DNA of 22,655 nt from a virus: IMG/VR virus record IMGVR_UViG_3300027671_000006, positions 1-22,655 of that record; one strand, 5' to 3'. Below, piece after piece: positions 4,815-22,453 of this stretch. Position numbers and translations under genes: made by a program. The notes beneath the pieces are model-generated. The model was given only the letters and a program-made list of their open reading frames with translations. It was not told the DNA's origin and did no database searches. Position 1 is the first letter of the stretch. Each line of letters opens with the position of its first letter.

Positions 4815-5615
4815 CTATTGAATTTCTGCATGTTTCGGTGTCAGTTCAAAAACGTTATTCGCTCGTGCAACACACTCTATCTCAGGTTTGCTAGTTGTCA
4901 AACGAGCAACATCGTCTTCGCAATAGGGAGTGACATAGCCCGGCGTTGGCGCCAGCGGCGGCGCCGGGTGCAGCGAGCCGACTGCAACAGTCCGATCCGG
5001 GTCGGTTATGTGAACTGTCTTTATGGATACCGTGTTTAAGCGTTCCTCGATACGCCTCAACCTACCGTTCAACGCATCAAACTTATCGCAGACTTCGCTG
5101 AAGTGATACAGCATCTCTCCGCGAATAGTTCGTGCGGCTGCGCGCTGTTGCTTCTTCAATTGTCGGTCGGATTCGACTGTCGCCGGGTTCAGAAGCACAC
5201 CAACGGTTTCAAGATGCTTTGCAATTCGATCCAATAGCCAGACAGCATCTTCAAAGTCGAGCGCATCCTGCTTAGTATCTTCAACACTGAAGTTCACGTA
5301 TGCGTCAGTGACCGCAGGCCCGCCGCGGCAGCGATACCCCCAAAATCGAAACGTTGCGAGATCAGCGAATTTTGCCGCAACAACTTCGGACTCTGAGAAT
5401 CCGATACGCCTATATTTTCCCCCGAGGTAAATACGCACTCCGAATGTTCTCCCGTTGGGCAACAGGTAATAGCAGCATGGTGTGCAACCTGCGGCACGTT
5501 TATCCCGCAGTTCGTCATCGTATTGACGCACCGGGTTGTCAACGGTGTCGAAGGTAATCGTCCGTAGCTCGTTCGCAAGCTCGGTCAACGTCGGATCGTT
5601 TGATCGTGTTCCCAC
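4815..5615 (-). CDS. AP2-like DNA-binding protein with coiled-coil region; leaderless GTG start
   Basis: First gene of the leftward operon. A TTG two codons upstream is also in frame, but the GTG at 5615-5613 lies five bases from the -10 hexamer CACTGT and so falls at the expected transcript 5' end, as for the other promoters here. Residues about 50-110 (FGVRIYLGGKYRRIGFSESE, then AAKFADLATF and later AYVNF) match the order of features in AP2/ERF-type DNA-binding domains of phage endonucleases: three beta strands, a helix with A-A-K, and a terminal N-F. No HNH domain follows; instead there is a helical, probably coiled-coil region and a Pro-rich linker. A regulatory DNA-binding role, perhaps at the adjacent inverted repeat, is inference. 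Confidence 0.7.
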   Translation of the reverse strand: MGTRSNDPTLTELANELRTITFDTVDNPVRQYDDELRDKRAAGCTPCCYYLLPNGRTFGVRIYLGGKYRRIGFSESEVVAAKFADLATFRFWGYRCRGGPAVTDAYVNFSVEDTKQDALDFEDAVWLLDRIAKHLETVGVLLNPATVESDRQLKKQQRAAARTIRGEMLYHFSEVCDKFDALNGRLRRIEERLNTVSIKTVHITDPDRTVAVGSLHPAPPLAPTPGYVTPYCEDDVARLTTSKPEIECVARANNVFELTPKHAEIQ

Positions 5616-5620
5616 GAACA

Positions 5621-5649
5621 ACAGTGCACCGGAAATCGTTACTTGTCAA
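5621..5649 (-). promoter_or_regulatory. Leaderless-type promoter of the leftward operon (family member 1)
   Basis: Read on the minus strand, TTGACA (5649-5644) is followed by exactly 17 bp and CACTGT (5626-5621). A GTG start lies five bases downstream. The -35 hexamer is a perfect sigma70 match; the -10 keeps A and T at the positions equivalent to -11 and -7. The layout is identical to that of the rightward members. Confidence 0.85.
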
Positions 5650-5687
5650 ACGATACGCCGTTTCGCCGTTATGGGCGATTATGTAAA

Positions 5688-5824
5688 CAATTATGATGAC
5701 GAGTTCTGAGTCCAGGCGACTGTGGCCCCGGCTGGGATATTCTATGGGCCAGGGCGTAGTCTCCATATATTGATTAAAAAATCCCAAAAAGGAAAAAGGG
5801 ACTCAGAACTCGTCATCATAATTG
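5688..5824. repeat. Perfect 26-bp inverted repeat between divergent promoters
   Basis: Arm 5688-5713 is the exact reverse complement of 5799-5824, with 85 bp between them. Complementarity continues imperfectly outward for roughly ten more pairs (5678-5687 against 5825-5834). The loop contains an A-rich run (about 5774-5797) and a smaller GGCCC/GGGCC repeat. The element lies between the leftward promoter (5621-5649) and the rightward promoter (5875-5903). Possible roles are operator, replication origin element or transposon relic; no target-site duplication is visible. Confidence 0.85.
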
Positions 5825-5874
5825 GTTAGATAATGGAACAATACCTTCGGCGGCTGGCAGGCCAGTTTTTCGGT

Positions 5875-5903
5875 TTGCAATTGCCGCGAAAATGTGGCAC
5901 TAT
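5875..5903 (+). promoter_or_regulatory. Leaderless-type promoter (family member 2)
   Basis: TTGCAA (5875-5880), a 17-bp spacer ending in GTGG, then CACTAT (5898-5903). The ATG at 5912 follows after eight bases. A short hairpin CTGG-CAGG-CCAG followed by five T (5854-5870) sits just upstream and could insulate this promoter from read-through. Confidence 0.85.
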
Positions 5904-5911
5904 TGGTTTAT

Positions 5912-6091
5912 ATGGACCCGAAAGATAAACCATCCCCAGCTTCGGTGGATAAAGAGCTTTTCAAGCGTATGCCGAAAGCGGTTCAAGACCTGAATGCCCT
6001 GGGCCGCAAGGAGCTTCGTCAGAAGCGCCGTGCTCAGTTCGAGGATGAGCGACAACAAAGAGGGTTCCCTACCACCCCGCCGAGAATATGA
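5912..6091 (+). CDS. Small basic hypothetical protein (59 aa)
   Basis: First gene of the rightward side. The ATG at 5912 is chosen over an in-frame GTG at 5894 because the GTG lies inside the promoter spacer, while the ATG falls where the transcript should begin. The sequence MDPKDKPSPASVDKELFKRM is followed by a Lys/Arg-rich helix (LGRKELRQKRRAQFEDERQQ). Its stop overlaps the endonuclease VII start as ATGA. The basic character suggests nucleic-acid association; no family is recognised. Confidence 0.65.
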   Translation: MDPKDKPSPASVDKELFKRMPKAVQDLNALGRKELRQKRRAQFEDERQQRGFPTTPPRI

Positions 6092-6429
6092 AAAACAAAG
6101 TCCCTGAACTCGGTCCGATGATTTTTGATGAATCTCGCCGGATGATAAGACGATTCCGTCGCCGCAATAACATTCAGAGAAACTCAAGTGTGAGCTATCT
6201 CAAGTATAAATATGGGCTGACGCCGGAGCAGCTTGAGAAAATGCGGTTAAATCAAAACTTTTCGTGTGCGATTTGTTTGCGGCAACTTCCGCTAGTGGTT
6301 GACCACAATCACGCGAATGGAAAAGTGCGGGCCTTGCTGTGCGTAGCCTGTAATGTTGGCCTAGGGCAGTTCCAAGATTCTGTGGTAATGCTTGAGCGGG
6401 CGCAAGAGTATATCCATAAACACCAATGA
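6088..6429 (+). CDS. Recombination endonuclease VII-type HNH nuclease (113 aa)
   Basis: The C-terminal domain is a clear endonuclease VII (beta-beta-alpha metal) nuclease: the lead-in SYLKYKYGLTPEQLEKM, then Cys60-x2-Cys63, the catalytic Asp72-His73-Asn74-His75, Arg81, and Cys85-x2-Cys88-Asn89. In phage T4 this fold resolves branched DNA such as Holliday junctions during packaging; shorter relatives are often nicking enzymes or homing-type nucleases. The N-terminal 35 residues are basic. The start overlaps the previous stop (ATGA), and its own stop overlaps the next start. Placement beside the TerS-like gene fits a DNA-packaging context. All expected metal and catalytic residues are present. 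Confidence 0.9.
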   Translation: MKNKVPELGPMIFDESRRMIRRFRRRNNIQRNSSVSYLKYKYGLTPEQLEKMRLNQNFSCAICLRQLPLVVDHNHANGKVRALLCVACNVGLGQFQDSVVMLERAQEYIHKHQ

Positions 6430-7079
6430 ATATGCCTGAAATTGATTCGATTGACCGCGAGCAAGCTTTTCTTTTGTATGCTTCTTTCTGTGGCGATCTC
6501 GCCCGCACAGCGCACGCTTTAAATGTATCCCCGGTGACGGTGCTTCGCATGGCCGACGACGAAGGCTGGAATGACAAGCTGGCGCCGATTCTCGCGCTTA
6601 AGAAGTCCAGCAAACCTGGTGACGTTGAGAGAGCTATGAATCGCGCGTATAACTTTGTCCAGGGGCATCGTATGCGTATGATTGTCAACCGCGTGATTCA
6701 GCGGCTTACCGGATTCAATGAGAAGGAGTTCGAGGATTATTTATTGACCGGAACATCCCCGCACGGTGTTAAATTCGCCAAGCTCAGCACGCGCGCGTTG
6801 GCGGACCTGGCGAGCGCGATGGAGAAGGCGCACGCTATGACCTATGCGTCCCTCAACGACACCGCGCCCGAGCGCAGCAGACGCAATGAAGCCGGCGACG
6901 ATAGCGTATCCGCCGGGCTGTTGCACGTCAAGCTTGCGGCAGCGATGTCCGAGGCTGGCGAGTCCAAGACACCGCGCGCCTTACTTTTCGACGCCCAGCT
7001 TGAGCAAGCCGCTGCGGCTGTGAAGGTTATACAGGATAGCGCGAAGCCGGCTAACCCGAACGACAACGATGACCACTAA
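6426..7079 (+). CDS. TerS-like DNA-binding protein (217 aa)
   Basis: The ATG at 6426 overlaps the nuclease stop as ATGA; a second ATG two codons later is possible. Residues about 15-48 form a helix-turn-helix-like segment (LYASFCGDLARTAHALNVSP, then VTVLRMADDEGW), followed by LKKSSKPGDVERAMNRAYNF, a layout I associate with phage terminase small subunits and related proteins. The C-terminal third is Ala-rich, helical and acidic at the end (NPNDNDDH). The terminase large subunit lies about 10 kb away, so the assignment rests on sequence character rather than adjacency. Confidence 0.55.
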   Translation: MNMPEIDSIDREQAFLLYASFCGDLARTAHALNVSPVTVLRMADDEGWNDKLAPILALKKSSKPGDVERAMNRAYNFVQGHRMRMIVNRVIQRLTGFNEKEFEDYLLTGTSPHGVKFAKLSTRALADLASAMEKAHAMTYASLNDTAPERSRRNEAGDDSVSAGLLHVKLAAAMSEAGESKTPRALLFDAQLEQAAAAVKVIQDSAKPANPNDNDDH

Positions 7080-7101
7080 TAGTTGACTAAACGGTCAACT
7101 A
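7080..7101. repeat. 8-bp inverted repeat directly after the TerS-like gene
   Basis: TAGTTGAC (7080-7087), a six-base loop, then GTCAACTA (7094-7101). It starts one base after the TAA stop. There is no T-run, so it is a poor intrinsic terminator; it may be an operator or a 3' RNA stabiliser. Confidence 0.6.
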
Positions 7102-7391
7102 CTAAGCGCAAGCGAAAACGTAGCGCGCTCCCCGGATTTTCTTTCCTTTCACGATAACGTTAGCGATAAATCCCCCGAGCGCAGGCCGCGCGCCTCACGA
7201 CCGAGGCCGGCGGACGTGGCCGAATCTACAGATAGTGCCACAACCTCCTACCCGGTATCGTTAAAGTTTCAAAACCCGCTTGGGGGGCTGCTCGGCTGTA
7301 TGTTTCGCTTAGTGCCTCCCCCTGGGGATAAAAAATTGGGATCGAGGATATTTTGTGTGCCGTAGGTTCCTCCCGGTGGGAACTATTGCGC

Positions 7392-7420
7392 TTGCACTAT
7401 ACTTGCGCCTGGAACACTGT
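7392..7420 (+). promoter_or_regulatory. Leaderless-type promoter (family member 3)
   Basis: TTGCAC (7392-7397), 17 bp ending in TGGAA, then CACTGT (7415-7420). The ATG at 7427 follows after six bases (TGAGAG). The shared geometry is what identifies it. Confidence 0.8.
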
Positions 7421-7426
7421 TGAGAG

Positions 7427-7696
7427 ATGGCTTACATGGAAAATGCGGACGCAGAGAAGCGGAAGTTTCTCCCGGCTGTTATTGTCGATTTTACCTGCGA
7501 CCGATGCAAACGAGCCGGCAAAGGGCTGTGCTCCACACTGCCGGCGCCGTCGCCGATAACCGCAGGCTACTATGACCTGACTGCCAGTTGGCGAGAATAC
7601 GCGCGCGGCAACGAGAAAACAATCTGCGACGAGTGCATGAACTCCGATGAAAAATTCAAAACCATGCTTCGATCTTCCTACGGATTTTCTGTGTAA
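7427..7696 (+). CDS. Small zinc-ribbon phage protein (89 aa)
   Basis: Two CxxC pairs, Cys24-x2-Cys27 (TCDRCKRAGKG) and Cys67-x2-Cys70 (ICDECMNSDEKF), flank a conserved-looking middle (TAGYYDLTASWREYA). This matches small phage proteins I recall in which a zinc ribbon is split by an AGYYD...W...YA segment; their role is unknown, possibly transcriptional or structural. The ATG is leaderless relative to the promoter at 7392-7420, and there is no Shine-Dalgarno sequence. The next gene has its own promoter, so this is probably a single-gene unit. Confidence 0.75.
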   Translation: MAYMENADAEKRKFLPAVIVDFTCDRCKRAGKGLCSTLPAPSPITAGYYDLTASWREYARGNEKTICDECMNSDEKFKTMLRSSYGFSV

Positions 7697-7703
7697 ATTC
7701 TGC

Positions 7704-7732
7704 TTGCCTATTTTTCTCGAATCCGGCACTGT
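7704..7732 (+). promoter_or_regulatory. Leaderless-type promoter of the protease gene (family member 4)
   Basis: TTGCCT (7704-7709), 17 bp ending in ATCCGG, then CACTGT (7727-7732). The first ATG of the gene follows after six bases (7739) and a second ATG comes directly after it. The CCGG just before the -10 is shared with the members at 15147 and 16487. Confidence 0.85.
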
Positions 7733-7738
7733 TGGTAT

Positions 7739-8530
7739 ATGATGAAAAGCGCGCTGAAGTTGGCCGCTGCGATTACAATTTTCGCGGTTGCTTCCGTTGC
7801 TTTTTGTCGTTGCGATTTCCTGCGGCCTCTGGCTGGCGTGTCGTCTGAAAACCGATACGAGCGTGCGGTCCAGCAAACGGTTCTGATCGTAACGCCATCC
7901 GGCAGCCAAGGGTCCGGCGTAGTCATCAAACGTAGTTCACCGGACGGTGAACGGTTGTTCGTCTGGACGGCGGCACACGTAACGTGCAATGCGGATACGT
8001 TCGATGTCATTAAATCTTTTCCTTCCGGCACAGCTACTTTTAAGGCGCATCTGATCGCCAGCGATACCAAATTCGATGTCGCGCTACTCCAATTGGATGC
8101 ACCGACGATTTTATTCCAATACGCGGAATTTGCACCGGAAAATTACACCGGGAGGATCGGTGACTGGATTTATCATTGCGGAAACGTTCTCGGTCAGAAC
8201 TATGTGAATCTGGTAAGCCGGGGAATAATTTCCCATGAGGGCAACATTCTGTGGGCGTTAGTCGATGTTTCAACACTGCAAGCGGAACACGGTTGCTCCG
8301 GCGGGCCGGTATATGCGGAAAGCAATCAGCAGGTAATCGGGATTTTGATTGCCGGAATCGCGCGCGGTCAATATGTCGGCTACGTTCCGGTGCGAGAAAT
8401 TTGGAAGTTTGCAAAGTCCGAAGGCGTCCGATGGGCAGTTTATGGAAACTATTGTCCGAGCGATGCAACTTTGAAAATCCTAATCGACGATCACCGGGTA
8501 GCCCCAAACCAATCAGACATACAGGAATAA
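7739..8530 (+). CDS. Secreted or membrane-anchored trypsin-like serine protease (263 aa)
   Basis: The catalytic triad is readable: His80 in FVWTAAHV, Asp113 in KFDVALLQLD, and Ser187 in HGCSGGPVY. The oxyanion motif GCSGGP and the preceding GSGVVIK strand are typical of chymotrypsin-fold (S1/HtrA-like) peptidases; no PDZ domain follows. Residues about 4-22 are hydrophobic (ALKLAAAITIFAVASVAFC), a signal peptide or membrane anchor without a clear lipobox. Phage capsid-maturation proteases usually belong to other folds, and a secretion signal argues against acting in the capsid. Processing of a periplasmic or surface protein is plausible, with virion processing as the alternative. The gene has its own leaderless-type promoter and lies just upstream of virion genes. 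Confidence 0.85.
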   Translation: MMKSALKLAAAITIFAVASVAFCRCDFLRPLAGVSSENRYERAVQQTVLIVTPSGSQGSGVVIKRSSPDGERLFVWTAAHVTCNADTFDVIKSFPSGTATFKAHLIASDTKFDVALLQLDAPTILFQYAEFAPENYTGRIGDWIYHCGNVLGQNYVNLVSRGIISHEGNILWALVDVSTLQAEHGCSGGPVYAESNQQVIGILIAGIARGQYVGYVPVREIWKFAKSEGVRWAVYGNYCPSDATLKILIDDHRVAPNQSDIQE

Positions 8531-8534
8531 TAAC

Positions 8535-8939
8535 ATGGCAATTCAACTCGGCGTAACAGCGCGCAATAACCGCCTCGATCAAGTCGAGAGCACCGCAGGA
8601 GTCAGCGCAAAACTTCAAATACGCACTGGCGCACAGCCTGCCGATTGCAGCGTTGCGAATTCCGGCACACTGTTGATTGAAATCGCGCTGCCGTCCGACT
8701 GGATGAACAGTGCATCCTTGGGGGTTAAAACGAAACTCGGCACCTGGTCCGGCAGTGCTACCGGCACTGGCACCGCTGGCCATTTCAGAATTTTCGACAC
8801 GACCGATGCAACGTGCCATGTGCAAGGCACGGTAACGTTGACTGGCTCTGGCGGCGACATGACGTTGGACAATACCAACATTCAATCGGCGCAAGTCGTC
8901 ACGGTCAACACATTCACATTAACAGACGGAAACGCATAA
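8535..8939 (+). CDS. Probable minor virion protein (134 aa)
   Basis: The sequence opens MAIQLGVTARNNRLDQVEST and continues with LQIRTGAQPADC, a signature I associate with small beta-rich structural proteins of podovirus-like phages. The remainder is Gly/Thr/Ser-rich beta structure (FRIFDTTDATCHVQGTVTLT). It has one of the few plausible Shine-Dalgarno sequences here, AGGA eight bases before the ATG. The stop is one base before the next start, consistent with co-translation in the virion module. Its exact virion location is unknown. Confidence 0.6.
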   Translation: MAIQLGVTARNNRLDQVESTAGVSAKLQIRTGAQPADCSVANSGTLLIEIALPSDWMNSASLGVKTKLGTWSGSATGTGTAGHFRIFDTTDATCHVQGTVTLTGSGGDMTLDNTNIQSAQVVTVNTFTLTDGNA

Positions 8940-8940
8940 T

Positions 8941-9477
8941 ATGAGCTTACAAACCTGGGAAGAAGTTTTAGTAACGTCGATCACTGACGGCACCGCGCTG
9001 ACAGCCAGCACAACGCCAACATCAATTTTGCCGTCGCAATCAATCCTGACGTTGCCGAGTAATTTTTTCTACGTCGGGCGCCAAATTCGGTTGCGCGCAA
9101 GCGGGAGAGTTACTACGGTTGTTACGACCCCCGGCACGTTGACATTGGATATTCGGTTTAACACGTCAGTCATTGTTGCTAACGGAGGCGCAATTCCGTT
9201 GACAACCGTTGCACAGACCAACGATACCTGGTCGTTGGAATGGTTGCTAACCTGCCGGACTGTTGGGTCTGGAACTGCGGCTACGTTAATGCACACGGGC
9301 GTTTTTCTGAGTTCCGCTGGCAACCCGATTGTGTCGATGTTACCTGCGACCGCTCCGGCAGTCGGCACCGGCTTCGACAGCACCGCTGCCCAAACTGTGA
9401 ATTTGTTTGCGACCTGGTCGTTGAACAATGCGGATTCGATTCTTTGCCATCAATATCATCTTGAGGCGACGAATTAA
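8941..9477 (+). CDS. Probable virion-associated beta-rich protein (178 aa)
   Basis: It begins MSLQTWEEVLVTSITDGTAL and contains LPSNFFYVGRQIRLRASGRV followed by TTPGTLTLDIRF, a pattern I recall from phage structural proteins encoded beside tail-fibre genes. The protein is almost all beta strand, rich in Thr, and ends in a Gly-free segment (SILCHQYHLEATN). The ATG is one base after the previous stop and no ribosome binding site is seen, so coupled translation is likely. Confidence 0.6.
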   Translation: MSLQTWEEVLVTSITDGTALTASTTPTSILPSQSILTLPSNFFYVGRQIRLRASGRVTTVVTTPGTLTLDIRFNTSVIVANGGAIPLTTVAQTNDTWSLEWLLTCRTVGSGTAATLMHTGVFLSSAGNPIVSMLPATAPAVGTGFDSTAAQTVNLFATWSLNNADSILCHQYHLEATN

Positions 9478-9490
9478 CAACGGATAGCTT

Positions 9491-9823
9491 GTGCCTGCGT
9501 CTCGTAGTCCGGGTAAATTTTTTGGCCCCCGGCAATTTCCGACGCCGGTTTTATTGCAGTTCAACGCTGGTGGTGCCAACGCGAATTCGGCGAATACGCT
9601 TGAAACAGTAACGTCATCCGGTGCTGGTGCCGTTGCGATTGCCGGAGCGACCTACGCCGTTATTATCTTCATAGCGGATACGTTATCCGCCAGCGGATCA
9701 GTTAGTGTTGCAGACACGTTGACTGTTACCCTGGCTCCGCTGACGCTGGTTGCCGGAGACCCGAAGGTAACTCGAAAATTTTTGCACCAACTTCGGATTA
9801 AGAAATATTTTCGCGGGATATAA
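9491..9823 (+). CDS. Short paralogue of the 21-residue-repeat virion protein (110 aa)
   Basis: GTG start at 9491, giving MPASRSPGKFFGPRQF. After a basic N-terminal segment, GGANANSANTLETVTSSGAG followed by AVAIAGA corresponds to the first repeat of the larger gene at 10358-11101, where the same linker reads AGANADSANILGALTLSGA. One clear repeat and a degenerate stretch are present, so this looks like a short version of the same adhesin- or fibre-like protein. The C-terminus is basic (KFLHQLRIKKYFRGI). The start is weakly supported. Confidence 0.5.
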   Translation: MPASRSPGKFFGPRQFPTPVLLQFNAGGANANSANTLETVTSSGAGAVAIAGATYAVIIFIADTLSASGSVSVADTLTVTLAPLTLVAGDPKVTRKFLHQLRIKKYFRGI

Positions 9824-9840
9824 TCCGCTTGAGAAAAAAC

Positions 9841-9846
9841 TAGAAT
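9841..9846 (+). promoter_or_regulatory. Possible -10 element (TAGAAT) for the gene at 9852
   Basis: TAGAAT lies five bases before the ATG at 9852, the same distance as in the leaderless-type promoters, but the -10 differs from the CACTRT family and no good -35 hexamer lies 16-18 bp upstream. It may be coincidental. Confidence 0.3.
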
Positions 9847-9851
9847 TTTAT

Positions 9852-10348: not shown

Positions 10349-10357
10349 GCTGATTTT

Positions 10358-11109: not shown

Positions 11110-11138
11110 TTGACATAGCGGGCAAAAATCAACACTAT
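11110..11138 (+). promoter_or_regulatory. Leaderless-type promoter (family member 5)
   Basis: TTGACA (11110-11115), 17 bp, CACTAT (11133-11138), then eight bases to the ATG at 11147. It shares the 16-base string AAAATCAACACTATTA with the portal promoter at 20234, defining a TCAA sub-class distinct from the CCGG sub-class. Confidence 0.88.
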
Positions 11139-11146
11139 TACTTTAT

Positions 11147-12103
11147 ATGGCAATCGACAAAAATGATCCTCGGCCTGCGGATACTGACAACAAATTGTTA
11201 CAAAAAATTCTTGAACGGCTGAAGTCCGGCATCGGGTTGACGAACAGCGCGATTGATATTGGCAAGGTTGACCAAGGAATTCCGGGGGTATCCCCGTGGC
11301 CGATCTCCGGCACTGTCGTAGTCAGTAATTTGCCGGCTACCCTCGGTCAAAAAACAATGGCGAATAGCGAATCGGTTGCTATTGCCAGCGATCAATCAAG
11401 TCTGCCGGTAACAATCGGTAATTTTCCCGCAACGCAACCTGTTTCTGTTGCCAACGGTGTTGACATTACGCAGGGTGGTTTAGCGGATGCGACCGCAAGT
11501 GCGGCAACGTTGGATGTAACTCCGACAACTGCGGCATCGAGTATTGCGATTCAGAAGGCGATCCTCAATGTGCTGTATCGCAGTAGCGTTGATACTACGC
11601 CGTTGAATGTTGTAATTGCCGCCGGGCTGAAACAAGTCAACACGAGTTTTAATCGGCCAGCGAATACGACGGCATACGCTGCAAATCAGGTTGTCAGTAA
11701 TAATACCATTGCCGGAAGTTCAAGCAATCTAACATTCACCGCAGTTGTTGCCAGCAATACCGGGGCCGCGTATATCTCTAAAGCCCGGCTTGTGTTGAAT
11801 AGTAGCGTTACCACCAATGGACAGTTTCGATTGTTTCTTTTCACCGTTAATCCTACGCCGTTGGGTGACGCTGCTCAGAATACATTATTGTATGCCGCGC
11901 GTGCTCAACGCATCGGGTGGATTGATTTTGCAGTATCCACTTCTGGCACCGGCAGCGATTGCGCGGAATCTGAGGTTGTAAGCATTAATCTTCCGTTCGT
12001 TGCAGTCGATAGCAACCTTTACGGCGTCCTTGTTGCGACCGCTGCCTACGTTCCGACATCGGCAGAGCCAATTTTCGTTGAGTTGACTATCGACCCGAAC
12101 TAA
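11147..12103 (+). CDS. Probable tail/baseplate-associated virion protein (318 aa)
   Basis: The N-terminal residues (MAIDKNDPRPADTDNKLLQK) lead into beta-rich linker segments such as ISGTVVVSNLPATLGQ and TIGNFPATQPVSVA. The C-terminal domain of about 150 residues (FNRPANTTAYAANQVVSN, later YISKARLVLNSS and FRLFLFTVNPTP) matches a domain I recognise from phage virion proteins near tail fibres; its function is not known to me. Transcription should start at the gene's own promoter with a leaderless ATG. Confidence 0.6.
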   Translation: MAIDKNDPRPADTDNKLLQKILERLKSGIGLTNSAIDIGKVDQGIPGVSPWPISGTVVVSNLPATLGQKTMANSESVAIASDQSSLPVTIGNFPATQPVSVANGVDITQGGLADATASAATLDVTPTTAASSIAIQKAILNVLYRSSVDTTPLNVVIAAGLKQVNTSFNRPANTTAYAANQVVSNNTIAGSSSNLTFTAVVASNTGAAYISKARLVLNSSVTTNGQFRLFLFTVNPTPLGDAAQNTLLYAARAQRIGWIDFAVSTSGTGSDCAESEVVSINLPFVAVDSNLYGVLVATAAYVPTSAEPIFVELTIDPN

Positions 12104-13386: not shown

Positions 13387-15150
13387 GTGGCGAATACCTG
13401 GTATCTCAATCCGGCGACCGGAAACGATAGTAATCCGGGGAACTCAGCGTCGCGTGCCTGGCGAACTGCTGCGCGGTTAAATACCGCGCTGGCTGACGGA
13501 ACGATTCTCGGAAACAGCGCGCATCCCTGGCGAAACAATGACGGAACGTTTCCTGCGAATCCGTTGGATGGATTAACTTTTTGCACGGGTCACAAATTCG
13601 GTTTGTTAATTAGCAACGGCGATACGGTGCTGATCGACACCAGCAATGCACCGCTATATTTGAGTGCGCCTCTGGTAATCGGAGATAATCTCGCGGGATT
13701 GTTAATTACCAGCGCGAGTGCAGACCGTGCGGATATTCGTGCGTATAAGCCGGTCTTTGGTTGGCAGCGAACCGCAGGATATAATAACATCTTCGATACC
13801 CCCGACACCGAGCAATACGTAGTTCTGTGGGAAAATTTACGCTGGCTCAATCATCCGGTTGGTGCTAATTTTGGGGCCGTTGCAGCGCAACTTGATAGTA
13901 TTGCTGGAAGCTTTTGGACTGACGGTATCCGGCTATATGTGCACCCCTTCGGCGACACTGATCCGAGAACCGATGGAAAGAGCTATACCCGGTCACAACT
14001 TTTTAGCGGTGCCGGCGATAGCGCAATCAACATTACCGGCAACGACATAATGCTGAGTCGTCTAAACATCTCTGGCACTTGTCTTGTTGATAGTTCGGTC
14101 AACGATTCACCGCCGTCAACAATTCATTATTGTATTCAAACTGTTTGTAATAATAACCGAATTTTCGATTGTTTTCTTAGCTATGGAAGCAAGCATGTTT
14201 TTGGATCGTTGCGAGGAATTAGTAACCGCGGCATTTTTGTGGATAGTGTTGTCGCGGAACAAGGTTCTCCATATACCGTTGGCGGCGGACAAACGATATT
14301 TGTTGCTTATTCGGATACTGCGGCGGGAACTACGTCGATGACGGCGTATTTTAAATCGTGTTCATGCGTAAACAATGAAGGGCTAATCGGGGGGATTTCT
14401 GGAATAGTTGATTTTCTCGATCCAGTGTTTATTACCCACAACTCATCGACCGGAATTCAATGGACTAATATTTTTCTTGATAGCTGTAATTTTTCCGGCC
14501 TAGTAATTTCTCAAACCAACGACAATATTCTTGATGGTCTAATAATCACGGACTGCACCTTCGGAGCAGCGGCGCTGGTTCGCTCGTCTATTAACCGCGG
14601 TATTGTTGATGCAACCTCGGTTGGATGTAATATTGCATCCCCAGGAATCAGCATTAAAAATTCGATCTTCCGACCGATTCAGCCCCCGGCAAGTGCTTCG
14701 GGATATTCGGTTGTCAGCGGGATTTATTCCGTTACGAATTGTGTAGTCGATTTACGAAATAGCCCGGCGGTAACCCCCGGTGCGATGTTCTTTCGATCTG
14801 GGGCCTCAACGTTTGTTTTTTCTAACAATATTTTTATTACAAAATCGGGTGTGCTATTTATGCCGATAAATTTATTCTTCAGCACCGACACGTTGGTAAT
14901 TGACAACAATATTTATCAGCTTGATGCAACGACTAACCTTTCCAAAAACTACGACGACGGAAACACAACCTCGACCCGGACATTCGATGCCTGGCAGAAA
15001 CTTGGCTTCGATATTCACTCGTTGCTCGCGGACCCATTGCTGGATTCTCTATACCTGCCGCGTGTCGGGAGTCCGGTTGGTCAGGTTGCCGCCGGAGAGT
15101 TTCTGTTGGTCCGCAGGACGCGAAGGCCGTTCCTGCGAAATCGACATTGA
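13387..15150 (+). CDS. Right-handed beta-helix tailspike-like protein (587 aa)
   Basis: GTG start one base after the previous stop. The N-terminus NTWYLNPATGNDSNPGNSAS is the typical entry of pectin-lyase-fold proteins (a YV/YL-x-P-x-TG-x-D-x-N-PG motif). The middle and C-terminal parts alternate short strands with Asn and Ser/Cys turns (ISGTCLVDSSVN, RIFDCFLSYGSK, NNIFITKSGVLF), consistent with a right-handed parallel beta helix. Such proteins act as tailspikes and often depolymerise capsule or other surface polysaccharide; catalytic residues cannot be assigned here. The last codons contain the -35 of the next promoter. Confidence 0.72.
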   Translation: MANTWYLNPATGNDSNPGNSASRAWRTAARLNTALADGTILGNSAHPWRNNDGTFPANPLDGLTFCTGHKFGLLISNGDTVLIDTSNAPLYLSAPLVIGDNLAGLLITSASADRADIRAYKPVFGWQRTAGYNNIFDTPDTEQYVVLWENLRWLNHPVGANFGAVAAQLDSIAGSFWTDGIRLYVHPFGDTDPRTDGKSYTRSQLFSGAGDSAINITGNDIMLSRLNISGTCLVDSSVNDSPPSTIHYCIQTVCNNNRIFDCFLSYGSKHVFGSLRGISNRGIFVDSVVAEQGSPYTVGGGQTIFVAYSDTAAGTTSMTAYFKSCSCVNNEGLIGGISGIVDFLDPVFITHNSSTGIQWTNIFLDSCNFSGLVISQTNDNILDGLIITDCTFGAAALVRSSINRGIVDATSVGCNIASPGISIKNSIFRPIQPPASASGYSVVSGIYSVTNCVVDLRNSPAVTPGAMFFRSGASTFVFSNNIFITKSGVLFMPINLFFSTDTLVIDNNIYQLDATTNLSKNYDDGNTTSTRTFDAWQKLGFDIHSLLADPLLDSLYLPRVGSPVGQVAAGEFLLVRRTRRPFLRNRH

Positions 15151-15175
15151 CAATTTTGCGAAAATCCGGCACTAT
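15147..15175 (+). promoter_or_regulatory. Leaderless-type promoter overlapping the tailspike stop (family member 6)
   Basis: TTGACA (15147-15152) includes the TGA stop of the tailspike gene. A 17-bp spacer ending in AAAATCCGG precedes CACTAT (15170-15175), and the ATG at 15182 follows after six bases. It belongs to the CCGG sub-class. Confidence 0.9.
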
Positions 15176-15181
15176 TTTTAT

Positions 15182-15418
15182 ATGGCAAACTTTCTGAAAG
15201 CAGACGAATTGGCGACCTTGAAATACCTGGTGCGGTATCTGACGAAGGCGCAGACCGATAAACCCGTGGATCAGATTACGGCTGATCGACTGGCGCGCAG
15301 TTTCCGCAGCACCATGACGATTACGCCGCCCAGTGAAGTCGTGTTTCGGGAGAATATGTTGAACCTGCCGATTCTGACGCTGTTGCAGCTAATCCTCGAC
15401 CTGAACGCAAGGCCGTAA
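15182..15418 (+). CDS. Hypothetical helical protein (78 aa)
   Basis: The ATG is placed at 15182 because it sits six bases after the -10 box; the open frame extends far upstream inside the tailspike gene but is not expected to be used. The sequence MANFLKADELATLKYLVRYL is followed by another helix near QITADRLARSFRS and a Leu-rich C-terminal helix (LPILTLLQLILDLN). No family is recognised. A separate promoter suggests its dosage or timing differs from the fibre genes. Confidence 0.65.
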   Translation: MANFLKADELATLKYLVRYLTKAQTDKPVDQITADRLARSFRSTMTITPPSEVVFRENMLNLPILTLLQLILDLNARP

Positions 15419-15475: not shown

Positions 15476-16171
15476 ATGAAAGTTTTCTCATACACGCGCG
15501 TCAGCGGGCGAGGCCAGGTTGAAGGCGACGGTAAGCAGCGTCAGCTTGATTCAATTTCTCGGATGTGTCGTGAACATAATCTTGAGCATTGCGGGGATTG
15601 GTTTGAGGCTGGTATTTCTGGAACGGTTGAGGGGATTGACCGACCCCGATTTTCCGAGATGCTAGACGACATCGAGTTTAGAAAAAAGCACAAGCCAGAT
15701 TCCATTGATGCAATTGTTGTTGAGCGTATGGATCGGCTCGCGCGCGATCTCATGGTTTCCGAGGTGCTGCTGAAGGAATGCAGAACTCGTGGAATCAAAG
15801 TGTTCGCCGCGGACTCCGGCGTGCTTGAGGACGTTGCCTCCGACAGTATCGACCCGACGCGCAAACTCGTTCGCCAGATTCTTGCCGCGCTGGCCGAGTG
15901 GGAGAAATCGGCGCTTGTGAAAAAACTTGCTGTCGCCCGCGCGCGGGTGAAAGCGAAAACCGGACGCTGCGAGGGCAGGTTGCCGTATGGGTGCCGAGTT
16001 GGCGAGCAAGCAGTTGTTGAGATAATCAAAAGTCAGCGTGCCGGGGGCCGATCCTATCAGCATATTGCAGATTTTTTGAATAGTGCTGCTCTGAAAACTC
16101 CGGCGGGAAAACAATTCGGAAAAAAGTTGGTGTTCAGTATTTACAACCGTGCAACCAACGGAAAGGTCTGA
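15476..16171 (+). CDS. Serine recombinase of the resolvase/invertase family (231 aa)
   Basis: The start at 15476 (MKVFSYTRVSGRGQ) puts the catalytic Ser10 in the classical Y-x-R-V-S motif with Arg8 beside it. Further family residues are in VVERMDRLARD (Arg87, Arg90), with the long helix around residues 125-160 and the recombinase-domain entry GRLPYG at 168-172. The C-terminal part (GGRSYQHIADFLNSAALKTP) resembles the helix-turn-helix region. At 231 residues it is closer to resolvases than to large serine integrases (usually over 450 residues). Possible jobs are lysogenic integration, dimer resolution or inversion of a receptor-binding segment; no attachment sites were identified. Confidence 0.88.
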   Translation: MKVFSYTRVSGRGQVEGDGKQRQLDSISRMCREHNLEHCGDWFEAGISGTVEGIDRPRFSEMLDDIEFRKKHKPDSIDAIVVERMDRLARDLMVSEVLLKECRTRGIKVFAADSGVLEDVASDSIDPTRKLVRQILAALAEWEKSALVKKLAVARARVKAKTGRCEGRLPYGCRVGEQAVVEIIKSQRAGGRSYQHIADFLNSAALKTPAGKQFGKKLVFSIYNRATNGKV

Positions 16172-16482: not shown

Positions 16483-16486
16483 CAGT

Positions 16487-16515
16487 TTGCATTATATCCG
16501 CTAAACCGGCACTAT
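16487..16515 (+). promoter_or_regulatory. Leaderless-type promoter before the membrane protein/tRNA block (family member 7)
   Basis: TTGCAT (16487-16492), 17 bp ending in AAACCGG, CACTAT (16510-16515), then five bases to the ATG at 16521. No other clear promoter is visible before the tRNA or the TerL block, so this may drive 16521 onward. Confidence 0.87.
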
Positions 16516-16520
16516 TGGGT

Positions 16521-16724
16521 ATGATTAACACTATTCTTGCAGTCTCCGGCGTTCATACGCTGGCTCTCGTTGTTGCCGCTGTGGCGGCTTCCGCTGTCGG
16601 CACGTTGCTGTTTTTGCGTGCGAATCCTCATAAGGCTTCTGAGGCCAATGAGTATGTCGGCAAAGCCGATAAGGCAGTTGATTCCGCCGTTAAATCGGTG
16701 GTTGAGACCGCTAAGAAGCTCTGA
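16521..16724 (+). CDS. Small single-span membrane protein (67 aa)
   Basis: The ATG at 16521 is preferred to an in-frame TTG two codons upstream because that TTG overlaps the -10 box. Residues about 10-33 are a hydrophobic Ala/Val/Leu segment (VHTLALVVAAVAASAVGTLL) followed by a basic, helical tail (KAVDSAVKSVVETAKKL). One transmembrane span with a charged C-terminal helix would fit a small inner-membrane protein; a holin is possible but not shown. It begins the transcript that also contains the tRNA. Confidence 0.65.
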   Translation: MINTILAVSGVHTLALVVAAVAASAVGTLLFLRANPHKASEANEYVGKADKAVDSAVKSVVETAKKL

Positions 16725-16767
16725 AACCGAAAGAGCTAAGTTGCGTCAGTTCGGCGCAGCCCTTTAT

Positions 16768-16844
16768 TGCAGCGTGGAGTAGCCTGGTAACTCGTCAGGC
16801 CCATAACCTGAAGTCCGTTGGTTCAAATCCAACCGCTGCACCCA
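16768..16844 (+). tRNA. Initiator-type tRNA-Met (CAT), 77 nt with encoded CCA
   Basis: Acceptor arm TGCAGCG/CGCTGCA, D-arm GAGT-AGCCTGGTA-ACTC, anticodon stem TCAGG/CCTGA with loop CCCATAA (anticodon CAT), T-arm GTTGG-TTCAAAT-CCAAC, discriminator C73 and encoded CCA. The layout and length match Escherichia coli tRNA-fMet closely. Initiator features are A11:U24 in the D-stem (elongators have pyrimidine:purine) and a weak U1:A72 end pair where bacteria have a C1:A72 mismatch. Deviations are A29:U41 instead of the third G:C pair of the anticodon stem, C33 replacing the near-universal U33, and C73 instead of A73. Confidence 0.93.
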
Positions 16845-16846
16845 AT

Positions 16847-16950
16847 TTGAGATGTTGATAAGGCACTGCCGACAGGCGGGGAGAAATCCGGGAACCTCGT
16901 CCCGAAAGGATTTGGGCTTGCACCGTCAGTAATTCCCGTTCGCATCTCAA
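16847..16950 (+). ncRNA. Structured RNA element in the leader of the 16960 gene
   Basis: An 8-bp closing helix pairs 16847-16854 (TTGAGATG) with 16943-16950 (CATCTCAA). Inside, AAATCC (16884-16889) pairs with GGATTT (16908-16913), enclosing GGGA (16890-16893)/TCCC (16900-16903). Smaller pairings (GCC/GGC near 16868-16877, ACTG 16865-16868 with CAGT 16927-16930) could form further arms. The element starts three bases after the tRNA CCA and ends ten bases before the next ATG. A riboswitch, processing signal or packaging-related RNA are all possible; no known class is recognised. Confidence 0.5.
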
Positions 16951-16959
16951 TATTTTCGC

Positions 16960-17469: not shown

Positions 17470-17474
17470 ACGTT

Positions 17475-19415
17475 ATGTTGCCCGTAGGACGGAACAAAGA
17501 TTTAGCGAAATACATCGCAGCTTTCATTCACGCGCAACAACTCGGTGAAGCGGCAAAGTTAATCTCCGATTTCTGCGGCATTGCTAAAACATTCGATAGT
17601 AATAACCCGAAGGAATGTCACCCGATTCTTCTGACGTATCTGCACAGCCTGCTGAACAGTAATGGCATGGAGGAAGCCGCGCAGATTCTCTGGACTCCGA
17701 ATCAATTTTCTTGCGCGCCGAAATACACCAAAGACCTTTGGAATCTATTTGATTCAACCAATCGGGGCCTTGTAATGGGCGCCGCGTCGTGCAGTAAATC
17801 GTATGCGCTGGGTGTTCGATTATTTCTCGAATGGATTCGTGATCCTGTATGGACGAGCATTCAGCTTGTCGGCCCGAGCGAGGATCACCTTGAAACAAAT
17901 CTTTTTTCTCATATCGTCGGCTTGCATACGAAATCAACGCTGCCGATGCCGGGGCAAATTGGAGAACTTTTCATCGGTATGGACCGGCGGCAGCAGCTTG
18001 GTTCGATCAAGGGAGTAATAATTCCGGTTGGTAAATCGAAAAAGGCCGGCAGGTTGCAGGGCGGAAAACGGCTACCGCGGGATCGGGCGCATCCGATCTT
18101 TGGATTGTTATCTCGCAAGTTTGCGTTTATCGACGAAATTGAAAACGTGCCCGCGGGTCTTTGGGCGGATATTGACAACATGCTTTCGACCATCGACGAG
18201 CAGGGTCACGAGGGCATGAAAATTTTCGGTGCATATAATCCTTCCGACAGAAACTCTGAAGTCGCCAAGCGCGCAGAGCCGCCTTTCGGTTGGGAGTCTT
18301 TCGACGTTGATGCTCATTTTGACTGGGTATCCAAGCGCGGTTGGAACGTGTTGCGACTCGATGGAGAAAAATCTGAAAACGTTGTCGCCGGTAAAACGAT
18401 TATTCCGGGATTACAAACGCGCGCGGGGCTTGCGGCGTTGGCATTGAATGCCGGCGGAACGCAATCCGCTGGATATTTTACAATGGGCCGCGGCGCATAT
18501 CCGCCAACCGGGATCGAGCTAACGTTGATCCCGCCAGGAATGTTGTATAAAATGCGGGGCGAGTTTATCTGGTATGACGCGCCGACGCCGTGCGCGTCCT
18601 GCGACGTTGCGTTGACTGGCGGCGCTCGCGCTGTGTATTCGCTTGGTAAATACGGCAAGGCAACGGGAATGAAAATTCCTCCGACAATTGAGTTTCCGAA
18701 CGGGCAGGTAATAATGTTCAAGGATAAAAACGGCCATGTTGTCCCGCGCTTCGGGGTTCAGTTGGACCGCCAGTTTACGTTGCCGCAAGGCGACACGGTC
18801 GCTGTTAAGGAGGGCTTGATGCAGGTTAATCGTCGTGCTGGTGTCAAACCGCAGGATTTTGCTTGCGACAGAACTGGCAACGGTGCTGGGGTCGCTGATT
18901 TGCTTCGGCACGAATGGTCGAGTCAGATTCACGATGTAAACTATTCTGAGGGGCCGACCAAAACGAGAATTGTTGCTGAGGATAAAAAACCGTGCGACGA
19001 GATGTTTGATCGGATGTGTTCCGAGCTTTGGTTTGGTTTTCGGACCTTTGGTGAATTTCATATTTTTTTGATTAACCCGCAAGTTGACATGAGTAAACTT
19101 ACGGAACAAATCACAGGTCGAAAGTCTAAGCAGGTCGGTGAGAAATCGAAAATCGAATCGAAGAAAGACTATATCACTCGTGGCAATGAATCTCCCGACG
19201 AGGCCGATAGCGCAACGTTGCTTGTTCTTGCGGCGCGTCTCGGTAGCGGAGTTATTCCTTCGATCAACGGCACCGAGCTTCCGACGCTCGGAAATTTCGA
19301 CGGGTGGGAGGACGAGATGCACTATCCGCACGGGGTTCGCCTTGATCCAAGTTCTCGAACAGATTATCTTGATGCTTCAGAAAGCGGGATGTATGGAGGC
19401 GAACCGATTTTATGA
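17475..19415 (+). CDS. terL: Terminase large subunit (646 aa)
   Basis: ATPase motor and nuclease that cuts and packages phage DNA into the prohead. A Walker A-like loop GAASCSKS lies at residues 102-109 and Walker B FAFIDE at 216-221, followed by the coupling segment GAYNPSD near 252. In the C-terminal nuclease half, acidic residues appear in CASCDVALTGG (Asp377), ACDRTGNGAGVAD (Asp465) and later SPDEADSAT, the expected RNase H-like triad. The start is the ATG at 17475, five bases after the preceding stop, giving MLPVGRNKDLAKYIAA; the open frame reaches further upstream inside the neighbour. The stop overlaps the next ATG. The packaging type cannot be told from this alone. Confidence 0.93.
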   Translation: MLPVGRNKDLAKYIAAFIHAQQLGEAAKLISDFCGIAKTFDSNNPKECHPILLTYLHSLLNSNGMEEAAQILWTPNQFSCAPKYTKDLWNLFDSTNRGLVMGAASCSKSYALGVRLFLEWIRDPVWTSIQLVGPSEDHLETNLFSHIVGLHTKSTLPMPGQIGELFIGMDRRQQLGSIKGVIIPVGKSKKAGRLQGGKRLPRDRAHPIFGLLSRKFAFIDEIENVPAGLWADIDNMLSTIDEQGHEGMKIFGAYNPSDRNSEVAKRAEPPFGWESFDVDAHFDWVSKRGWNVLRLDGEKSENVVAGKTIIPGLQTRAGLAALALNAGGTQSAGYFTMGRGAYPPTGIELTLIPPGMLYKMRGEFIWYDAPTPCASCDVALTGGARAVYSLGKYGKATGMKIPPTIEFPNGQVIMFKDKNGHVVPRFGVQLDRQFTLPQGDTVAVKEGLMQVNRRAGVKPQDFACDRTGNGAGVADLLRHEWSSQIHDVNYSEGPTKTRIVAEDKKPCDEMFDRMCSELWFGFRTFGEFHIFLINPQVDMSKLTEQITGRKSKQVGEKSKIESKKDYITRGNESPDEADSATLLVLAARLGSGVIPSINGTELPTLGNFDGWEDEMHYPHGVRLDPSSRTDYLDASESGMYGGEPIL

Positions 19416-19984
19416 GGCGCATAAACGTCAACCTTTACCCGAAGGATGGTTATTGGTTCAAGAATACTGATGGTGCAAGAATTATTGCAGCAACTTGGGG
19501 AGGCGTCATGGCTCGGCTTGCGATTTATCGGAAACGCGCTGGACAGCCGGCAGGCGATCCTGAACGGGAAGTGATGGAGCAAGCATGTCAACGCAATCCG
19601 TCGTTTTGCACAACCGATGACGGGACCGCGGGCCGACAGTTGAAAGCCGCTTCGCTCAAAGGCAGATTACTTGCCTGGCTGAACGGAATTATCTCTCGTA
19701 GAACGATAACTCCGTTGGAATTCGTCTCTCAAACCGACGCAGCGAACCGGGCCAACGTTTGTGCGGGCTGCCCGATGAATACCGCACTCGCGGAGGGATG
19801 TTCAAGCTGCAAAGCGGCGTTACGAGAACTTAGAAAAAACGTAATCGGCGGACGAATCATTGACAGCCGGATAAACGGATGTGTTGTCACCGGAGAAGAT
19901 TTGCCAACAACCGTCTGGCTGAACGAGCCGACGATTGAAAACGCAGAACTACCGGCGCATTGTTGGAGAAAGAGAACGCTGTGA
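19412..19984 (+). CDS. Cys-rich protein between terminase and portal (190 aa)
   Basis: ATGA overlap with the terminase stop at 19412. The N-terminal third is unremarkable (YPKDGYWFKNTDGA). The C-terminal half has Cys117-x2-Cys120 (VCAGCPMN) and Cys130-x2-Cys133 (GCSSCKAAL), plus Cys157 and a final H-C-W at 183-185, a layout I recall from phage proteins encoded between terminase and portal genes. Zinc binding is likely. The role is unknown; location suggests packaging or head assembly. Confidence 0.7.
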   Translation: MRRINVNLYPKDGYWFKNTDGARIIAATWGGVMARLAIYRKRAGQPAGDPEREVMEQACQRNPSFCTTDDGTAGRQLKAASLKGRLLAWLNGIISRRTITPLEFVSQTDAANRANVCAGCPMNTALAEGCSSCKAALRELRKNVIGGRIIDSRINGCVVTGEDLPTTVWLNEPTIENAELPAHCWRKRTL

Positions 19985-20250
19985 TCTTCCGTTTCGATTC
20001 AATTTTTCGCGCAATCAGTGCTTTTGCTCGTATGTGCTGGTGGGCGCATAAAGGATACCGAAACCTGGCAACCGAATCGGAGCAGGAAGAACGCTCTGAA
20101 TATTGTTACGACTGCCCGGAGCTAACAGAATCCGATCAATGCCGGCTTTGCACCTGTTTTCGTGCCGCGAAAGTAGTTTTGACCAGCGAGCGGTGTCCGT
20201 TGCGAAAATGGGACGTAATTCGGTCCAAACCGCTTGACAGCAGCCTCTAA
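19981..20250 (+). CDS. Small Cys-rich protein, GTG start (89 aa)
   Basis: GTG at 19981 overlaps the previous TGA as GTGA, and this is the start used here rather than an ATG seven codons upstream inside the neighbour. Cysteines at 42, 45, 54, 57, 59 and 72 form CYDC, CRLCTC and a terminal CPLRKW, close to the C-x2-C...C-x2-C-x-C...CP-x3-W pattern of DUF6171-like phage proteins. The C-terminal codons (LDSSL) contain the -35 of the portal promoter. Confidence 0.7.
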   Translation: MIFRFDSIFRAISAFARMCWWAHKGYRNLATESEQEERSEYCYDCPELTESDQCRLCTCFRAAKVVLTSERCPLRKWDVIRSKPLDSSL

Positions 20251-20262
20251 AATCAACACTAT
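20234..20262 (+). promoter_or_regulatory. Promoter of the portal gene (family member 8)
   Basis: TTGACA (20234-20239), 17 bp, CACTAT (20257-20262), then ten bases to the ATG at 20273. It lies partly inside the end of the preceding coding sequence. The string AAAATCAACACTATTA is identical to that of the promoter at 11110. This member has the longest -10 to ATG distance, so a leader of a few bases is possible. Confidence 0.85.
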
Positions 20263-20272
20263 TAAATAGAAT

Positions 20273-22453
20273 ATGCCGCCATCTGATAACTTTTCGATGC
20301 CCTACACCACCAGTCCGGTGACAGCCTCTAGCGGCGATTACGCATTCGGTATAATTCGATCTCCGAAAATCGACGAAAAGGGAGAACCGCACCAGAAATC
20401 CATCCGGGATATTCAAATGGCTCGGGATGTTGTCCGAACAGTGATTATGGCGGGCCGAAATCGTCAAATTGTCAACAGCAGAATCCTTGCTAAATACAAT
20501 GCCGAGCGTCCCTACGACAGCCACAAGCTTGAATCCGAAGGACTAGGATGGAAGCAGAATTTTACGACGAAACCGTTGCCGAACATGATCGAGAAAGTCG
20601 CGCCGCGGTTCTCGATTGCCGTTGACGGATTGAAATATTTTACGAATTCTTCACTTTCAGATAAATGGTTGAACAACACTGAAAAAACGGAAAAATTCCG
20701 AAAGATAATCACTGAAACAATTCGGGGCCGGAAGGGCTGGAAAACGTTGATCGAGGATATTGCGTTTAACAACGCGCTGTTCGGTCATTCGGTTATCGCT
20801 TGGCTCGATGAGTTCAGTTGGTTTCCGAAACACTTTCAACAAGACGAGAGTTTTCTTTCCGACGGCACAAAACAAACGGTTAGCTACAGTCAGGTCGCCG
20901 TGCTGAAAGAAGTTTTCATGCCGCACGAACTGTTCGATCAGATCAAGGATATGGAGGCTGCGAAGATGGTGGGCTGGAACATCCAGGAAACCATCGACTC
21001 GATTAACCGCGCGTCTCCGGTGCAAATCCGCGACCGTCTGAACGTCGGCGGAACGTTGGAAACCTGGTATCAGAATGCATTGCGCGAACTGACTATCGGC
21101 GCAAGCTACATGGCTGGCATGAGTGTCATTGTCGTTTATTCTTTGATTGTTCAAGAAGTGACTGGGAAAGTGTCGCACTACCGTATGGCCGGCCCGGAGC
21201 TTCTTGCGATCTTTGAGAAAGATGACAGGTTTGAACGCATGGATGACTGCCTTGCATTTTTTGCGTATCAAAAGGGCAACGGAACGATGCACGGTAGTAA
21301 AGGTGTCGGACGTGATATTTACGAACTCGCGGGCATGATCGACAGGACCAGAAATGAAATCGTTGATAGGTCGATACTTTCCGGCAAACAAATGGTGCAA
21401 GGCGACGTAAAACGAATCCATCAATTCAAAATGTCGATTGTTGGCGCTACGGTTATCGTGCCGAGCGGCTGGGATTTTCTTCAGCACAAAATCGACGGAA
21501 ATATTGAACCGTTCCTCAAGCTCGATGCATATTTTTCTCAGCTTGTAGATCAGTTAATTGGAAACACATCGCCTCCAACAACTCAGAGCGGGGAGGGTAT
21601 GCGAAGTCCTGCGGCCTGGAACCTTCTTGCTTCCCGCGAGGAAGAAGGAAAAGACGTAAAGATCAATAGGTTTCTCGAACAGTTTGTTGAAATGGTCGGA
21701 ACAATGCAGCGTCGTATTTGCGATGTTGATACCAGCGACAAAGACGCAAAGGAAGCTCAGCGGCAGTTGTTGTTATCCATGACGCGCGATGAAATTGACG
21801 AACTTGCCAACGATACCGTTGCCGGAACTATTCGGGATTTGACTCCGCAGGAGCGACAATTGATTGTTGCTATTGCCGGAGAGAAAAAAGGAAATCCGTT
21901 GTATAACCAGCGCGCGCTTGAGGTTGAGGATTTGACGGCGCGAGTCGGCGCTGATTTCGCCGAGAAGGTGTTGATGCCGGCCAACGATCCAACAGAAGAA
22001 GCGGAGAATCACCGCCAGCAGCAGTTTGAATCTGCGCTGCTGTCGCTCGGTCAGCCGGTGCCAGTATCGCCTCGGGATAATCATCTTATACATCTCTCTG
22101 TGGTAATGCCGACTGCGGAAAATATGGGCCATGCGCTGATGCAAGGCGGAACGAATACTCAGGCTTTCGAGACGATATTGGCCCACATAAACGAGCACTA
22201 TAATCAGGCTCTCGGTCAAGGTGTTCCGAAAGAAAAACTCAAGGAAGTCGCCGAGTTAATGAAACAGGCCGGTCCTGCGATTGCCAAGCTTAAGGCAATC
22301 GACCAGCAGGCGCAGCAGCTTCAGGCAGCCAGCGCACAGCATGATGCAGAGCATCCGATGAATTCCATGCAGCCGTCCGCTTCACCCGGACAGCCGCCAA
22401 TGCCGGTTCCGCCCGCGCCGCCGGCACCAATGCCAAACCAAACAGCCCAATGA
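20273..22453 (+). CDS. Portal protein (726 aa)
   Basis: Forms the dodecameric ring at the capsid vertex through which DNA is packaged and ejected. Size, position after terminase and sequence character fit portals of podovirus-like phages: NAERPYDSHKLESEGLGWKQ near the N-terminus, a central region with GVGRDIYELAGMIDRTRNE, a long helical stem (PAAWNLLASREEEGKDVKIN and following), and PRDNHLIHLSVVMPTAENMG late in the protein. The last 28 residues are Pro/Gln-rich (PGQPPMPVPPAPPAPMPNQT). The ATG has no Shine-Dalgarno sequence and depends on its own promoter. Confidence 0.85.
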   Translation: MPPSDNFSMPYTTSPVTASSGDYAFGIIRSPKIDEKGEPHQKSIRDIQMARDVVRTVIMAGRNRQIVNSRILAKYNAERPYDSHKLESEGLGWKQNFTTKPLPNMIEKVAPRFSIAVDGLKYFTNSSLSDKWLNNTEKTEKFRKIITETIRGRKGWKTLIEDIAFNNALFGHSVIAWLDEFSWFPKHFQQDESFLSDGTKQTVSYSQVAVLKEVFMPHELFDQIKDMEAAKMVGWNIQETIDSINRASPVQIRDRLNVGGTLETWYQNALRELTIGASYMAGMSVIVVYSLIVQEVTGKVSHYRMAGPELLAIFEKDDRFERMDDCLAFFAYQKGNGTMHGSKGVGRDIYELAGMIDRTRNEIVDRSILSGKQMVQGDVKRIHQFKMSIVGATVIVPSGWDFLQHKIDGNIEPFLKLDAYFSQLVDQLIGNTSPPTTQSGEGMRSPAAWNLLASREEEGKDVKINRFLEQFVEMVGTMQRRICDVDTSDKDAKEAQRQLLLSMTRDEIDELANDTVAGTIRDLTPQERQLIVAIAGEKKGNPLYNQRALEVEDLTARVGADFAEKVLMPANDPTEEAENHRQQQFESALLSLGQPVPVSPRDNHLIHLSVVMPTAENMGHALMQGGTNTQAFETILAHINEHYNQALGQGVPKEKLKEVAELMKQAGPAIAKLKAIDQQAQQLQAASAQHDAEHPMNSMQPSASPGQPPMPVPPAPPAPMPNQTAQ

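Follow-up and report, generated by a model that had tools for sequence, protein, structure and literature searches.

A conserved promoter family abutting start codons in a group of soil phages, with a candidate phage sigma factor and an initiator-type tRNA

The stretch of DNA analysed here, hereafter the window, is the IMG/VR virus record IMGVR_UViG_3300027671_000006 (22,655 bp), and its virus is a member of a little-known group of soil phages. It carries a family of promoters of fixed geometry, a TTG-type -35 element followed after 17 bp by the -10 hexamer CACTRT and a T, which end a few nucleotides (nt) in front of start codons. On the sequence evidence, this family is shared with relatives of the virus, conserved among them and tied to gene starts, and it is predicted to give rise to mRNAs with little or no leader. 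Near-complete relatives encode a sigma-like protein, and the window and a number of relatives encode an initiator-type tRNA-Met. An account that unites a phage sigma factor, leaderless mRNAs and a helper tRNA is given a probability of about two in three.

The promoter family and its position at gene starts

On both strands of the window the pattern TTG-N20-CACTRTT is matched nine times, whereas 100 dinucleotide shuffles average 0.09 matches and never exceed 1. The initial annotation had proposed eight sites, all of which were recovered (Table 1; the leftward one spans 5620-5649 and not 5621-5649), and in all of them the start codon stands 5-10 nt past the -10 hexamer, as had been described; the open reading frames (ORFs) behind them range from 59 to 726 amino acids (aa). 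With a matrix built on the eight sites these score 20-36 bits and the ninth match (8645-8674) 8.5 bits, and the ninth match is probably accidental. In a leave-one-out scan of the window seven of the eight sites rank near the top, each with at most one non-family site above it, while the leftward site is the weakest and is outscored by 31 non-family sites. The matrix check that had been proposed was also run with training restricted to other genomes; in the window this matrix retrieves eight sites followed by a start codon at 5-12 nt, versus a mean of 0.30 for 200 column-permuted matrices. A TTGACA-like -35 element at about 17 bp, as in sigma70 promoters, was found; all eight sites have CACTRT as their -10 hexamer, and neither a TATAAT-like -10 element nor the TANNNT of the Deinococcus type was found in them.

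The 726-aa ORF at the end of the window, used as query, identified 42 relatives at approximately 63-71% identity, several of them 68-75 kb long, and their whole records, with genes called as plain longest ORFs, served as the test set. A blind count of 7-mers located 3-12 nt before start codons, performed on the relatives with the window left out, ranked GCACTAA, CACTATT, CACTGTT and CACTAAT as the top four. When 51 sites in the relatives were picked solely by a CACT-type hexamer near a start codon, without use of the -35 region, T-N-G appeared at spacer 17 in 30 of them, as compared with at most 4 at the other spacers from 11 to 23, apart from 11 at spacer 20, and TTG appeared at spacer 17 in 15, versus 0-5 elsewhere; at this spacer the third -35 position is a G in 76%. 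Equally, a leave-one-genome-out matrix detected 45 sites with an ATG-initiated ORF 5-10 nt behind, whereas 40 permuted matrices averaged 4.0 such sites and never gave more than 9; lambda and N4 yielded none. Judged genome by genome, the motif is clear in the window and in G002, G003, G005, G009, G014, G021, G004, G006 and G017. Some sites are orthologous between genomes, so that not all of these counts are independent. Among distant contigs that carry the sigma gene, it is clear in G021, weak in G022, present in a variant form in G025 and not clear in G023, G024 and G026. An AACT variant of the -10 element is suggested in G026 and G007 by a signal too weak to be claimed, and a covariation of the -35 element with the sigma clade (G002/G005) was seen and is not claimed because the sites are orthologous.

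With such an excess over expectation, conservation in relatives and placement at gene starts, the family is almost certainly real and no coincidence, as had been proposed. Its description as phage-wide is borne out to the extent that relatives share it, whereas the window itself is a 22.7-kb fragment, probably a piece of a larger genome of about 70-75 kb.

The distance between hexamer and start codon is informative about the transcripts. In the relatives it peaks at 5 nt (16 of the 51 sites), falls below 5 nt in only two and tails off to 16 nt; in the window, five of the eight sites have the gap of about 5-7 nt typical of leaderless genes, at 5-6 nt, and the remainder lie at 8-10 nt. Such a wall at 5 nt is expected for transcripts that begin 5-6 nt beyond the hexamer, since a start codon cannot precede its transcript. 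It is accepted for Deinococcus that -10 motifs at 6-7 bp from the ORF yield leaderless mRNA (PMC12340547), and this precedent together with the wall argues that most mRNAs from these sites have no leader or one of a few bases. The mRNAs are therefore, as read from promoter geometry, very probably leaderless or nearly so; the prediction of leaders of zero to a few bases stands for most sites but does not extend to the longer gaps of up to about 16 nt in relatives. Sites resembling a Shine-Dalgarno (SD) sequence precede 6% of ATGs in the window and 8-18% in six near-complete relatives; counted in the same way, lambda has 45% and N4 63%. Because this usage is low at all genes of these phages, the host is likely SD-poor, and the near-leaderless layout may partly be a habit of such a host.

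The candidate sigma factor and alternative readings of the motif

In the proposed mechanism, a phage-encoded alternative sigma factor with the host core RNA polymerase would bind CACT(A/G)(T/A)T together with T-(T/G)-G-(A/C)-C placed 17 bp ahead of it. The first transcribed base would lie some 6 nt beyond the hexamer and would coincide with the start codon or shortly precede it. The resulting mRNAs would be leaderless or nearly so, so that translation would have to proceed without an SD site, and the phage initiator-type tRNA, in some relatives under the same promoter class, would probably raise initiation on these messages.

A candidate for this sigma factor, an orthologous sigma-like protein of 200-245 aa, is encoded by each of the six near-complete relatives that the 726-aa protein retrieved. 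Every member matches sigma70 region 4, region 2 is weak in Pfam, and the closest profiles are FliA/WhiG-type factors. A structure model (predicted local distance difference test, pLDDT, 79) has sigma factors as its closest counterparts in the PDB; the overall TM-scores are low, as its two domains are arranged differently. Among eight near-complete genomes with the sigma gene, region 2.4 reads RG-E or RG-Q where the motif is present (G002, G003, G005, G009, G014) and RG-A or RG-R in the motif-less G007, G023 and G026; this difference, which appears to track the presence of the motif and is confounded by descent, is a lead. In addition, small proteins whose only sigma-like part is a helix-turn-helix resembling region 4 are encoded by four near-complete relatives (L047, 14313-14543, minus strand; L056, 7364-7582, minus; L060, 559-783, minus; L050, 18518-18883, plus), possibly a second transcription regulator.

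The shared element CACT(A/G)(T/A)T is not TATAAT-like. The initial annotation had ascribed the sites to bacterial RNA polymerase with a non-consensus -10 element, of which the host core is retained in the proposal, while the -10 element itself is better explained by a phage sigma factor than by the main sigma factor of the host. That the host main sigma nevertheless reads the family, the near-leaderless layout being nothing but the habit of an SD-poor host without any special phage system, is an unlikely yet not negligible explanation. The TTGACA-17 geometry is indeed that of sigma70, and the low SD usage of these phages would suit it, but the -10 element begins with a C where sigma70-type elements have a conserved first T, TATAAT (6 versus 5) and TANNNT show no sense-strand excess ahead of genes, and the sigma gene is kept in six of six near-complete relatives. 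Taken together, the phage sigma factor probably reads these promoters.

T7-like promoters share the core CACTATA or CACTAAA, as seen for T7, SP6 and T3, which CACTATT and CACTAAT resemble. Recognition by a T7-like single-subunit RNA polymerase is, however, highly improbable and was rejected, as a search of eight long relatives for RNA_pol (PF00940) gave no match, with the T7 and N4 controls scoring, and a separate -35 element at a fixed 17 bp is foreign to such promoters. It is hardly more credible that the motif is a translation signal or a regulatory operator, as its place just upstream of start codons might suggest, since it comes with a -35 element at fixed spacing, it is followed by the start codon at distances anywhere between 5 and 16 nt, and it also stands before tRNA genes; an RNA gene needs no start-codon signal, which argues for a promoter.

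The initiator-type tRNA

An initiator-type tRNA-Met is encoded in the window and in at least eight relatives (L051, L060, L062, L066, L072, L075, L080, L037), and a CAU anticodon with an initiator D-arm (GAG at 10-12, A11:U24) was found in the window and eight relatives. The bacterial initiator features looked for were the lack of a Watson-Crick pair at 1:72 and GGG:CCC at 29-31/39-41. The latter is absent from every phage copy checked and present in the E. coli control, and is replaced in four ways, by AGG:CCU in the window and by ACG:CGU, GCG:CGC and UGG:CCA in relatives; position 1:72 is U1:A72 in the window and several relatives, and a U-U or C-U mismatch in L066, L037 and L075. In G014, L023, L039 and relatives close to them, TGGCGG-17-CACTGT lies 9 nt upstream of the initiator-type tRNA gene, and G010 has CACTGT before its tRNA without a recognisable -35 element. 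Two tRNA matches in other viruses (L129, L132), which have no -35 element and carry GGG:CCC, were treated as unrelated.

In E. coli, a full change of the triplet (UA/CG/AU) leaves a tRNA that is charged and formylated, yet inactive in initiation (PMC10486304), and more formylmethionyl-tRNA raises leaderless translation strongly and canonical translation mildly (PMC9031893). An initiator tRNA supplied by the phage would therefore suit leaderless messages; that it helps their translation is a possibility which falls somewhat short of even odds. A serious rival, conceivable though to be held tentatively, is that the tRNA replaces host initiator tRNA cut by a defence such as VapC and has nothing to do with leaderless mRNA. 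Initiator tRNA is a substrate of VapC, and protection against defences that cleave tRNAs has been suggested as a role of phage tRNAs (PMC10264068 and its references), but phages are reported generally to avoid encoding tRNA-fMet where VapC-LT2 targets it (PMC10264068), the changes sit in the anticodon stem and not at the anticodon, and in some relatives the tRNA has the promoter class of the regulon.

Directly 3' of the tRNA gene, about 100 nt (16850-16952) are closed by GAGATG/CATCTC pairing; this segment has no Rfam match and folds mildly better than its shuffles (z -1.6). Further tRNAs occur in relatives, namely one with a four-base anticodon (gtat), unassigned, beside the initiator-type tRNA of G007 (L060, 16419-16494), and tRNA-Ala with tRNA-Pro in G005 (L056, 19007-19163).

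Several observations weigh against the account that joins sigma factor, leaderless mRNAs and helper tRNA. G007 has no CACTRTT sites at gene starts, though the sigma gene and the tRNA are both present. The near-complete G002 and G005 have promoters and sigma gene but no tRNA-Met, so the phage tRNA-Met is not indispensable. Only about 6-12 sites are clear per genome, and other promoters must therefore exist. The absence of a sigma gene from the window is most easily put down to its being a fragment, and the link between sigma factor and promoters rests on co-occurrence and the region 2.4 difference in few genomes. Equally, the transcript starts are inferred from the promoter geometry.

Table 1. 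Features of the window
Feature	Position	Strand	Context
Promoter TTGACA-17-CACTGT-T	5620..5649	-	GTG at 5615, gap 5 nt; 266-aa ORF 4815-5615, first of leftward gene cluster
Promoter TTGCAA-17-CACTAT-T	5875..5904	+	ATG at 5912, gap 8 nt; 59-aa ORF, then endonuclease VII-like ORF 6088-6429
Promoter TTGCAC-17-CACTGT-T	7392..7421	+	ATG at 7427, gap 6 nt; 89-aa ORF 7427-7696
Promoter TTGCCT-17-CACTGT-T	7704..7733	+	ATG at 7739, gap 6 nt; trypsin-like protease ORF 7739-8530
Ninth pattern match	8645..8674	+	Within ORF 8535-8939; no gene start behind
Promoter TTGACA-17-CACTAT-T	11110..11139	+	ATG at 11147, gap 8 nt; 318-aa ORF
Promoter TTGACA-17-CACTAT-T	15147..15176	+	ATG at 15182, gap 6 nt; 78-aa ORF 15182-15418; top-scoring site
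Promoter TTGCAT-17-CACTAT-T	16487..16516	+	ATG at 16521, gap 5 nt; 67-aa ORF 16521-16724, then tRNA gene
Initiator-type tRNA-Met (CAU)	16768..16844	+	Initiator D-arm, A11:U24; CCA encoded; anticodon-stem AGG:CCU
Promoter TTGACA-17-CACTAT-T	20234..20263	+	ATG at 20273, gap 10 nt; 726-aa ORF; position kept in relatives
Conserved 726-aa protein	20273..22453	+	Query for relatives; putative portal by position only

Genomic setting, known systems and significance

Between the divergent promoters at 5620-5649 and 5875-5904 lies a perfect 26-bp inverted repeat (CAATTATGATGACGAGTTCTGAGTCC) with an 85-nt loop (5688-5824; folding z-score -10.8), for which a role as bidirectional terminator, origin or recombination site is conceivable. 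A serine recombinase (Resolvase domain, PF00239) is encoded at 15476-16171 amid the rightward gene cluster, and G002 also has one. The 726-aa protein has no family match and a poor structure model (pLDDT 54), and its designation as a portal is putative and not confirmed. No relative was found among isolate phages, and one scan across bacterial genomes turned up a sole distant relative (44% identity), in a contig of a metagenome-assembled genome of Ca. Peribacteraceae which is without the promoter motif and may be mis-binned.

Phage alternative sigma factors with promoters of their own are known from SPO1 (gp28 and gp33/34) and T4 (gp55). As in these phages, a sigma-like protein would be expected to redirect the host core polymerase to phage promoters with a presumably non-host -10 element; unlike there, the candidate is FliA/WhiG-like with regions 2 and 4, the promoters read TTG-17-CACTRTT and they abut start codons. 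The leaderless genes of Deinococcus-Thermus equally have the -10 element close to the ORF, at a distance of about 6-7 bp (PMC12340547), which is, however, the TANNNT of host promoters, whereas here CACTRTT with a -35 element at 17 bp is found in a phage. Phage transcripts have been described as often leaderless (PMC5312081), and lambda cI is such a message (mentioned in PMC9031893). What is shared with cI is a phage message whose 5' leader is short or absent; the difference lies in a recurrent promoter class over many genes, accompanied by a candidate sigma factor and an initiator-type tRNA. Leaderless mRNAs and phage sigma factors both have precedents, and the present system would be a variant of phage sigma-driven expression. 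A self-contained leaderless programme, in which the phage sigma factor would make AUG-starting mRNAs, the phage's own tRNA without GGG:CCC would serve them mainly via the 70S route and the initiation rules of the phage would be partly separate from those of the host, is considered unlikely.

If the account is true, the presence in one phage lineage of a leaderless promoter class together with a sigma factor and a tRNA of the initiator type would represent a coherent takeover of transcription and translation initiation, and it would become testable whether a virus favours its own messages by supplying initiator tRNA. Furthermore, the phage group would offer a naturally occurring collection of initiator-type tRNAs that lack GGG:CCC.

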